A stretch of 12,293 nt of DNA from Candidatus Eiseniibacteriota bacterium (GTDB lineage: Bacteria > Arandabacterota > Arandabacteria > JAGLYR01), in assembly GCA_023132135.1 (NCBI GenBank), contig JAGLYR010000299.1, forward strand, positions 1 through 12,293. Direction: 5' to 3'. Position numbers and translations under genes: made by a program. Position 1 is the first letter of the stretch. Every line of letters begins with the position of its first letter. The notes below the pieces were generated by a model. That model was given only the letters and a program-made list of their open reading frames with translations. It searched no databases and had not been told where the DNA came from. Positions 4,789 to 11,848 of this stretch are shown piece after piece.

Positions 4789-5808
4789 CTAGTGCGCGGA
4801 GAGGATCACGAACAACGCAACCATTGCCTGGATCAAAACCACCGCGAGAACTCGTTTCCGCTCGATCAGCTTCGACGACATGGGCGCTTCCTCGAGATAC
4901 ACGCCCATGTCCGTCAGGTTGGGAAGACCGTACAGACACCTCACCACGAGAGCTTCGTCGTTCGTCACTCCCCTGCCTCGCGATCCTCCCCAGTACATCA
5001 CGTGTCCCGGATCCTCGCTGTGGACCAGAAGCATGAGAATGTGCCCCAGCTCGTGCTCAGCCGCGGACTGGACGTCCCTGGGCTCATCCAGCACCGGGCT
5101 CATCCACATGGAAGCCAGAACCGGGATCCCTCCCGGAGCGGCCCGCTCAAACACAACCCGCGAGTACCCCCCTGCGTATCCCACGCGGACCTGAGCTTCT
5201 TCCGCCTTTTCCACCTCGGCAAAGAGCGTGAGCCCGGTTCGCTCTTCCCACCGCCCCATCGCCCGCCTCACGAGTTCGTCCCACGAAAAACCCCGGGCTG
5301 AACGCGGAGGAACATGGATCCGGATGGGAAGACCTTCCCACCGTCTCAGGACAGTGGTTCGCGGCGAGCTCTCGTAGCTGATGCTGACATCCTCCTGGGC
5401 CCGCCTGCCAGGCTCTCCGGTCCCCGTCATCATCTTCAGCAGATGGAGCAGGTTCCGGTAGTCGCCGCTCTTCAGGGGGCCCAGGGGAATCATGGGGATT
5501 GTGAGACTCGTATCCCGGGGGGCAGCGAAAGGCTCCAGCAGAAACGCCGAGTACCCGCTGCCCGCGCCATCCACGACGAGTCCGCCGGTCCCGGCCGACT
5601 CCACGCGGAAACGCCCGCCGTAGCGGGTCGTATCGGCAACACCCCCGAGCCTGACCGGAAGACCATCGATCCCATCGCCAGTCGCAGCGTCGGTGACCCG
5701 GCCGGAGATTACGGAGGATGAGGCGCCGGACGGGAATGTTCCCCAGAGCGCTACGGCAAGCAGGCTAAGACCCCGGAGACTTCCTGTACGTCTGTCTCGC
5801 CCGCTCAA
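4789..5808 (-). CDS. exported matrixin-like zinc metalloprotease with C-terminal membrane helix
   Basis: Predicted exported metallopeptidase of 339 aa. Residues 1-31 look like a Sec signal (basic RDRR, then GLSLLAVALWG). Residues 33-105 resemble a carboxypeptidase-regulatory-like beta domain (ISGRVTDAATGDGIDG). The catalytic domain (about 160-297) has the metzincin order: helix WDELVRRAMGRWEERTGL, strand AQVRVGYAGG, zinc motif HELGH (252-256) with a third His at 263 then Ser, Met-turn candidate VMYW (M271), and closing TNDEALVVRCLYG. A hydrophobic helix at about 319-337 ends the protein, so it may be membrane-tethered by its tail. The zinc motif is one residue longer than HExxHxxGxxH and lacks its glycine. 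The start is uncertain. TTG at 5808 gives a short n-region and GAGG upstream; ATG at 5835 is the alternative. It overlaps the TPR gene by 44 bases. Confidence 0.75.
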   Translation of the reverse strand: MSGRDRRTGSLRGLSLLAVALWGTFPSGASSSVISGRVTDAATGDGIDGLPVRLGGVADTTRYGGRFRVESAGTGGLVVDGAGSGYSAFLLEPFAAPRDTSLTIPMIPLGPLKSGDYRNLLHLLKMMTGTGEPGRRAQEDVSISYESSPRTTVLRRWEGLPIRIHVPPRSARGFSWDELVRRAMGRWEERTGLTLFAEVEKAEEAQVRVGYAGGYSRVVFERAAPGGIPVLASMWMSPVLDEPRDVQSAAEHELGHILMLLVHSEDPGHVMYWGGSRGRGVTNDEALVVRCLYGLPNLTDMGVYLEEAPMSSKLIERKRVLAVVLIQAMVALFVILSAH

Positions 5809-9938: not shown

Positions 9939-9950
9939 GATAATCAACTA
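9939..9950 (+). promoter_or_regulatory. -10-like box directly before a start codon (leaderless candidate)
   Basis: GATAAT (9939-9944) matches the -10 consensus at 5 of 6 positions and ends 5 bases before the ATG at 9950. A poor -35 (TTCATC, 9916-9921) lies 17 bases upstream. No Shine-Dalgarno sequence precedes the ATG. If used, transcription would begin at or next to the ATG, giving a leaderless message. Confidence 0.4.
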
Positions 9951-10999
9951 TGCGCCCGAAACACCTTGCGACCATGGCGACAGTCTCATTGGTTCTCGTC
10001 GGCCTCTGCGGGATTATCCTCTCTGCCCCGGCTGCACCGCAGGTCGAGGCAGCCCGGGACGTCCTCTACTGCGCCTCCTGCGGGGAGCAAATCACGGGCG
10101 AGTATGTCAGCGCCTTGGGCAAATACTGGCACCCCGAGCATTTTGTCTGCGCCAACTGCCGGACGCCGCTTGCTGAAGCAACCTTCTACGAGAAGGACGG
10201 CCGCCCCTACTGCCAATCCTGCTACGAGGATCTCTTCCTCCCCCACTGCTGCATCTGCGGCCGGCCCATTCGGTCTGCATACATCGAGAACGTCTGGGGC
10301 GATGTCTACTGCAAGAAACACGAGCACGAATTCCAGACCTGCTTCAGCTGCGGCCGCCTGATCTGCGGAAGCCTCACCGGCGGCGGCCTGACCCACGATG
10401 ATGGAAGACACATGTGCAGCCTCTGTGGCCGGACTGCGGTCTATCGAGTCGAGGACGGCGAGGTTGTTCTCGACGAAGTGCGGCGGGCCATGAAGGTCCT
10501 CGGTCTCGATCTGCGCTCGGCGTCAATACCCCTTCGCATGGTAAGCCTGGAGGATCTGAGAGAGGGCCGGGCCAGAGACCTGAGTGGTCATATCAGCACG
10601 TCTGTCTGGACACGCGGCGGCAAGGTGACCGAGCGCAAGATCGAGGCCGTGTCCATTCTCTACGGTCTGCCCCGCGAGCACTTCGCAGCCGTCGCGGCCC
10701 ATGAGCTCATGCACGCCTGGTTGTTTCTTGAGAACTACCCGGAGCTGCCTCTGCATGTGGAGGAGGGTCTTGCCGAGCTCAGCTCCTATCTCTGGCTGCA
10801 GCAGCTGGGAACTCCAGAAGCGGCGTACCGGATGCGGGCGATGGAGAGCAACGACGATCCCGTGTACGGGTACGGTCTACGCCTTGCCCTCAAGAGCTGC
10901 CGACAAGTCCCCCTGGACAAGTTACTCGGATACATCAAGCGCCAACGGCGGTTTCCGGTCGAAGTTCAACAAGGAGTTGAAATAGAGCGACGGTTGTGA
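9950..10999 (+). CDS. exported double-LIM zinc-finger protein with DA1-like metallopeptidase domain
   Basis: A 349-aa protein with the architecture of plant DA1 minus its ubiquitin-binding N-terminus. Residues 1-35 are a signal peptide or anchor (RPKH, hydrophobic 7-29, likely cleavage near VEA-AR). LIM finger 1 uses C41, C44, H61, H64, C67, C70, C88, C91; H64 replaces the usual Cys. Finger 2 uses C100, C103, C121, H124, C131, C134, C156, C159, with YCKKHEHEFQTCFSCGRL like the second DA1 finger. The peptidase core is ILYGLPREHFAAVAAHELMHAWL (240s-258): HELMH (251-255) with downstream EEG (271-273) as probable third ligand, a gluzincin layout. Known DA1 proteins are ubiquitin-activated peptidases in plant growth control. 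Here the signal points to the periplasm or outside, so the substrate must differ. LIM domains are rare in bacteria. The family assignment is from motifs, not a search. Confidence 0.87.
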   Translation: MRPKHLATMATVSLVLVGLCGIILSAPAAPQVEAARDVLYCASCGEQITGEYVSALGKYWHPEHFVCANCRTPLAEATFYEKDGRPYCQSCYEDLFLPHCCICGRPIRSAYIENVWGDVYCKKHEHEFQTCFSCGRLICGSLTGGGLTHDDGRHMCSLCGRTAVYRVEDGEVVLDEVRRAMKVLGLDLRSASIPLRMVSLEDLREGRARDLSGHISTSVWTRGGKVTERKIEAVSILYGLPREHFAAVAAHELMHAWLFLENYPELPLHVEEGLAELSSYLWLQQLGTPEAAYRMRAMESNDDPVYGYGLRLALKSCRQVPLDKLLGYIKRQRRFPVEVQQGVEIERRL

Positions 11000-11089: not shown

Positions 11090-11848
11090 ATGAGGATTCT
11101 TGCTATAACTGTTGTGTTTGCCGGGGTTTGCTCGCTGATTCCCGCTGTCTTGCCTGCCATTGAATGTGGCGACTGTGGAATCGAGTGCGGGAGCGCCCTG
11201 TCCTGCATGAACCAGGTACCGGGAACCCCGTGCGGGATGAACGGGATCTGTATCGACCTGAATCATCCCGCCTGCGGGCTGGAAATCCGGTGCTGCGGCT
11301 GCGAGGAAGGTATCTCGCAGCAAGTTCTCTTCGACCCACCCCTGGCCATCCCCGATGGCGATCCTGTGGGTATCACTTCTTCAATTGATGTCCTGACATC
11401 ACGCATCGTCGTGGATCTGGACATCTATCTGGAGATCAACCATTCGTGGGTAGGGGATCTGGTGGTAACTCTGACTCATAAGGCGACCACAGCCACGTTG
11501 ATCCATCGACCCGGCGATCCTGCAACTCCCGGCGGCTGCGATAGTGATCTCTCGTGCGAGAAACGGATCTATCTGAACGATCAGGCCGCTGTTTCCATCG
11601 AGTGCTCGCCCGACGATTGCGAAACCTGCTTTCCCGGTGGTCAGGTCCAGGATTACAGCTATATCCCCAACGAAGCCCTGACCGCTTTTAACGGCCACGA
11701 CGCGTTCGGCGAATGGGAAATCGCCGTCGCGGACCTGAATGGCGGCGATGTCGGCGAGATCTGTTCCTGGGGAATCATTGTCGTCGGCGCCGGCCCGGTC
11801 CCGGCCGAGACACTCTCCTGGAGCACGGTGAAAGCGTTCTACCGATAG
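11090..11848 (+). CDS. secreted Cys-rich protein with P/Homo B (proprotein convertase) domain
   Basis: Predicted secreted protein of 252 aa. Residues 1-23 are a Sec signal (MRILAITVVFAGV...). Residues 26-71 contain ten Cys, suggesting a disulfide-knotted module. Residues 78-233 form a P domain: IPDGDPVGITSSI, VVDLDIYLEINHSWVGDLVVTL, then ALTAFNGHDAFGEWEIAVADLNGGDVGEICSWGI, the signature jelly-roll strands with GDL and GxW. The P domain normally accompanies subtilisin-like proteases, but no protease domain is encoded here. It ends SWSTVKAFYR, a possible short sorting or anchoring tag. I start at ATG 11090 because GGGAGG lies 5-6 bases upstream and the signal peptide begins there. An ATG at 11033 in frame would add 19 residues. 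It is convergent with glnS. Confidence 0.85.
   Translation: MRILAITVVFAGVCSLIPAVLPAIECGDCGIECGSALSCMNQVPGTPCGMNGICIDLNHPACGLEIRCCGCEEGISQQVLFDPPLAIPDGDPVGITSSIDVLTSRIVVDLDIYLEINHSWVGDLVVTLTHKATTATLIHRPGDPATPGGCDSDLSCEKRIYLNDQAAVSIECSPDDCETCFPGGQVQDYSYIPNEALTAFNGHDAFGEWEIAVADLNGGDVGEICSWGIIVVGAGPVPAETLSWSTVKAFYR

Follow-up and report, generated by a model that had tools for sequence, protein, structure and literature searches.

A bacterial relative of plant DA1 in which two LIM fingers are joined to a zinc peptidase

DA1 is a growth-limiting plant protease that regulates crop size, and the M1 aminopeptidases form a second group of interest here, with zinc sites of the form HExxH-x18-E. To our knowledge, no activity, location or substrate has been described for the bacterial members of the LIM-DA1 family. 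Such bacterial LIM/DA1 proteins are nonetheless already known, as the C-terminal region of DA1 was noted to be highly similar to Roseiflexus proteins with CxxC/H pairs, and the same study found that Cys274 of DA1 is needed for peptidase activity, its mutation abolishing that activity (Dong et al. 2017, PMC5322733, citing Burroughs et al. 2011 for the bacterial match).

We analyzed a 12,293-nucleotide stretch of DNA from a Candidatus Eiseniibacteriota genome (hereafter “the window”; contig C222), in which an ORF at 9950..10999 on the + strand opens with ATG and encodes 349 aa. Its product is a genuine bacterial relative of plant DA1, with two LIM fingers joined to a zinc peptidase. An earlier note, made from the sequence alone, had recognized two consecutive LIM-type fingers and an HExxH peptidase and proposed searching for the corresponding Pfam families, both of which were found past their cut-offs. 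The LIM model (PF00412) matched residues 41-95 (E 1.5e-19, well past the curated cut-off), and the DA1-like model (PF12315) matched residues 221-289 (E 2.3e-21, 76.6 bits vs. a cut-off of 25), the latter match spanning profile positions 68-137 of 213 only, or about one third of the model; no NCBIfam model was found for this protein. The classical LIM finger (residues 41-92; 10070..10225, +), which also matched the LIM domains of paxillin and PINCH1 and shared 44-46% identity over ~60 residues with the closest single LIM domains, holds by inspection the ligands C41 C44 H61 H64 / C67 C70 C88 C91. The DA1-type LIM-like finger behind it (residues 100-160; 10247..10429, +) was not matched by the Pfam LIM model and was assigned from ligand spacing, ligand conservation in relatives and alignment with DA1, with all eight ligands there (C100 C103 C121 H124 / C131 C134 C156 C159), bringing the count to sixteen, while Cys 20, 101, 139 and 317 are non-ligand cysteines. 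The gluzincin-type peptidase domain (residues 165-349; 10442..10999, +), delimited by PF12315, a structural match and invariant columns, carries HELMH at 251-255 followed by E272 (H251-E252-x2-H255-x16-E272) and a conserved Y306-G-x-G.

Comparison with DA1 itself bore out the DA1-like order and spacing that had been proposed for these parts. The Arabidopsis DA1 query was a reconstructed sequence, supported by the agreement of its C274 and R358 with mutations reported by Dong et al. 2017 (PMC5322733), where its HEMMH motif is also named. A pairwise search aligned the window protein with this reconstructed DA1 over 370 columns at 26% identity (E 3e-34), co-linearly between the first LIM finger and the DA1 end (C-terminal FPV), with DA1 Cys274 falling on C134, and a profile built from bacterial sequences only scored the reconstructed DA1 at 124 bits vs. 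a maximum of 5.8 among 200 shuffles. At the level of sequence, then, the protein is homologous over its full length, and co-linearly, to the LIM, LIM-like and peptidase portion of plant DA1, and all zinc ligands and the catalytic Glu are retained. The reported lack of ubiquitin-interacting motifs (UIMs) also stood, as no such pattern was found ahead of the fingers, where only 40 residues are available and are taken up by the signal peptide and linker.

Scanning a genome collection, we found 13 relatives, from Chloroflexi, Ignavibacteria, a Bacteroidetes MAG, Hatepunaea (Electryoneota), Zixibacteria, a cyanobacterial MAG, Spirochaetia and one unclassified bacterium; none was found in the viral contigs searched. 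PF12315 was above cut-off in 40/400 genomes of a Chloroflexota sample and 18/395 genomes of an Ignavibacteria phylum sample, and was rare in a broad window-centred sample (3/386 genomes, host genome counted in). The earlier premise that LIM domains are essentially eukaryotic was thus overstated, both LIM fingers and DA1-like peptidases being frequent in Chloroflexota and found in several other phyla, and the bacterial link having been published already in 2011/2017. Across the alignment of these 14 proteins, the fixed core consists of one LIM-like finger plus the peptidase, and the LIM fingers ahead of it vary from none (L007, L012) up to three (L002). A divergent DA1-like branch (L078 in genome G953, reported with one internal TAA, and L081 in G1093) has extended arrays in which numerous CxxC fingers precede HEYAHAW. 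Three copies occur in the cyanobacterial MAG genome G065, the third of these DA1-like paralogues (L031) combining a signal of the lipoprotein type (LSAC) with a finger region that is truncated.

An AlphaFold model built on the 14-sequence alignment reached pLDDT 88 and pTM 0.76, with pLDDT <50 only at the extreme N-terminus and in the 29-35 linker. Its finger pair matched PINCH1 LIM4-5 (E 5e-9), and residues 165-346 matched M1 aminopeptidases, the best being 1z1w (VIA Z 12.0, 160 residues, 3.1 A), matches that hold at the level of fold only, with 12-14% identity. The GxMEN exopeptidase motif of M1 aminopeptidases was not found in the ORF protein, which would make an endopeptidase likelier than an aminopeptidase. 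A structure of the DA1 latent peptidase seems not to have been solved so far, as no DA1 chain was among the PDB sequence matches.

We then considered where the protein may act. Its first 28 residues (9950..10033, +) form a probable Sec signal peptide, with an MRPKH n-region, a hydrophobic core at 12-25 (hydropathy 2.83 over 12 residues), an APA|A site after residue 28, at which cleavage is likely as judged by eye, and a helix at 4-25 in the predicted model; inspection further revealed that every start codon skipping the h-region and the cleavage site would break the first finger. These features agree with the earlier reading of an exported protein behind a signal peptide, and we consider the protein probably exported from the cell. 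Export labels for the relatives, assigned by listing plausible starts for each, by a hydropathy test on 64 ORFs and by inspection, gave an N-terminal signal or anchor for the window protein as well as for 29 further rows of a 63-row tree (Ignavibacteria/Bacteroidota, Zixibacteria, Electryoneota and cyanobacterial lineages), and neither for the Chloroflexota rows and one Spirochaetia row. Most non-Chloroflexota members thus appear to carry a signal or anchor, and the Chloroflexota members and plant DA1 appear to do without. The label required 4 changes on the tree vs. 21 when shuffled, so predicted location follows lineage.

The strongest alternative to cleavage is that the N-terminus remains as an uncleaved anchor, making this a membrane-bound peptidase facing the periplasm. 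The same helix at 4-25 would serve such an anchor, and relatives carry not only signal peptides but also a probable anchor (L029) or the lipoprotein-type signal of L031; prokaryotic LIM domains are also said to have been discussed, by Burroughs, Iyer and Aravind in 2011, as partners of membrane-associated peptidases. However, APA|A at residues 26-29 suits signal peptidase I, and we judge the anchor unlikely, if still a serious contender. Export raises the concern, voiced in the earlier note, that a reduced-Cys zinc finger would be odd in an oxidising compartment. The puzzle is less severe than it seems, as neither VKOR nor DsbB was found in the host genome by searches that did find each family in control genomes, and as many relatives share the same export-plus-Cys-finger design.

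Gene neighbours offered lineage-specific hints only. In three loci (L008, L009, L101), all of the exported type, a gene for a bifunctional transglycosylase/transpeptidase of the class A penicillin-binding protein (PBP) type sits directly upstream of the LIM-DA1 gene and in its orientation, and the same gene type lies near L007 in divergent orientation (identified by Pfam Transgly plus Transpeptidase in L009 and by similarity in the others). One could read this as a peptidase dedicated to cell-wall machinery, which processes or regulates periplasmic class A PBPs or their partners, but 3 of the 4 loci fall in one clade and no PBP-type neighbour was found in the window or the other loci examined, leaving such a role improbable. 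In ten loci from Chloroflexota of the Ktedonobacteria type (L104-L108, L110, L112-L114, L118), the LIM-DA1 gene, of the signal-less, cytosolic kind, is preceded at 4-85 bp and in the same orientation by a gene for a two-domain GNAT acetyltransferase, and a further GNAT copy lies 903 bp away in L103. Within the window, the neighbouring alcohol dehydrogenase-like gene, P-domain protein and tRNA synthetase end gave no hint to function. The P-domain gene (11090-11848, +) follows the LIM-DA1 gene on the same strand after ~90 bp. Its product, Cys-rich and exported, has a proprotein-convertase P domain at its C-terminus (E 2e-6) and is a possible substrate or partner of the peptidase. A probable secreted matrixin-like (Peptidase_M10) metalloprotease, with HELGHILMLLVHSEDPGHVM, is encoded at 4789-5760 (-; E 8e-6 to Pfam Matrixin).

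The host genome (3.40 Mb, 96% complete, 0.4% contaminated) contains this ORF as the sole LIM and sole DA1-like gene found in it, and no DA1-like gene was found in the seven other genomes of its small phylum. That isolation, a single gene among 8 genomes, together with the two-finger architecture shared with plant DA1, could point to recent acquisition from a eukaryote or to a contaminant. Against this, the base composition of the gene (GC 61.4%, GC3 74.9%) is that of the contig and inside the range of neighbour genes, the neighbours are bacterial (TPR proteins, a methyltransferase, UbiA, an aldehyde dehydrogenase, an alcohol-dehydrogenase-like gene, a tRNA-synthetase end), a signal peptide is present, and bacterial relatives occur in several phyla, many as deep clades. 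Such an origin is thus very improbable, and eukaryotic contamination, which the earlier note had named among the findings that would undo its reading, was rejected on genome quality, composition and neighbours in favour of a bacterial source. The alcohol-dehydrogenase-like neighbour itself has only ~30% identity matches in sister genomes of the phylum, so no shared gene neighbourhood was available there for comparison.

That the protein might be a catalytically dead scaffold, in which LIM fingers accompany a degenerate peptidase, is scarcely credible, as HELMH or HELGH (with H251, E252 and H255 invariant), the Glu ligand E272 and YGxG are kept in all 14 aligned proteins. The spacing between HExxH and the Glu ligand is the same in 63 of the 64 ORFs, C134 is invariant in the 14, and the ligands of the LIM-like finger are invariant or C/H-conserved among them. 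We favour, with reasonable though incomplete confidence, an exported DA1-like zinc endopeptidase of the periplasm or envelope, in which the LIM-like finger belongs to the catalytic unit, the front finger docks a substrate or partner, and ubiquitin plays no part. A Sec signal would take the protein out of the cytoplasm, zinc would be held by H251/H255/E272 with E252 as general base, and Y306 may be a transition-state residue. The LIM-like finger may pack with the catalytic domain or be required by it, a role suggested by its retention in every aligned relative and by the essential equivalent Cys of DA1. The front classical LIM finger, variable in number, would dock peptide segments of the substrate or partner, and the enzyme would carry out limited proteolysis of exported or envelope proteins, leading to their processing or clearing. 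Ubiquitin is presumed uninvolved because the protein lacks UIMs and, once exported, would be out of reach of the cytosolic ubiquitin route of plants. An E2 enzyme search gave no match in the host genome and none in its controls.

As to ancestry, the window protein, the Chloroflexi protein L002 and DA1 share one fork of the 63-row tree, in which more than one branching order is compatible with the data (support for DA1+L002, 70/81). Constrained trees joining DA1 to the window protein (p 0.50), DA1 to Ktedonobacteria (p 0.41) or the window protein to the other exported rows (p 0.08) were not rejected, so the tree is compatible with passage of DA1 in either direction between bacteria and plants. 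A further reading, which we hold somewhat less likely than not, is that several phyla hold an exported DA1 branch with Cys-rich LIM fingers as extracytoplasmic substrate readers, and that plant DA1 derived from an exported or cytosolic bacterial branch to which UIM control was added later.

Beyond what was known, our additions are modest: predicted export that follows lineage, an unchanging core preceded by differing numbers of LIM fingers, and a conserved pairing with GNAT genes. Small, UIM-free bacterial relatives offer a simple system for the role of the LIM-like finger in catalysis, and are also suited to questions of the ancestral DA1 substrate and of how LIM zinc sites persist extracytoplasmically. 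Set beside known systems, the window protein is most like plant DA1/DAR, sharing the LIM, LIM-like and HExxH-x16-E peptidase parts in the same order down to the C-terminal FPV, with DA1 C274 corresponding to C134, but it has a signal peptide in place of UIMs and a shorter linker from the LIM-like finger to HExxH, and activation by ubiquitin is a feature of plant DA1. Roseiflexus and other bacterial LIM-DA1 proteins belong to the same bacterial family, although the sampled Chloroflexota members lack the signal peptide that the window protein carries. M1 gluzincin aminopeptidases (1z1w, tricorn interacting factor F3) share the catalytic fold and HExxH with a distant Glu, but the window protein differs in lacking GxMEN and the M1 N-terminal domain and in its x16 rather than x18 spacing. 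Eukaryotic tandem LIM proteins such as paxillin and PINCH1 share the classical LIM finger, but are cytoplasmic adaptors without a peptidase.
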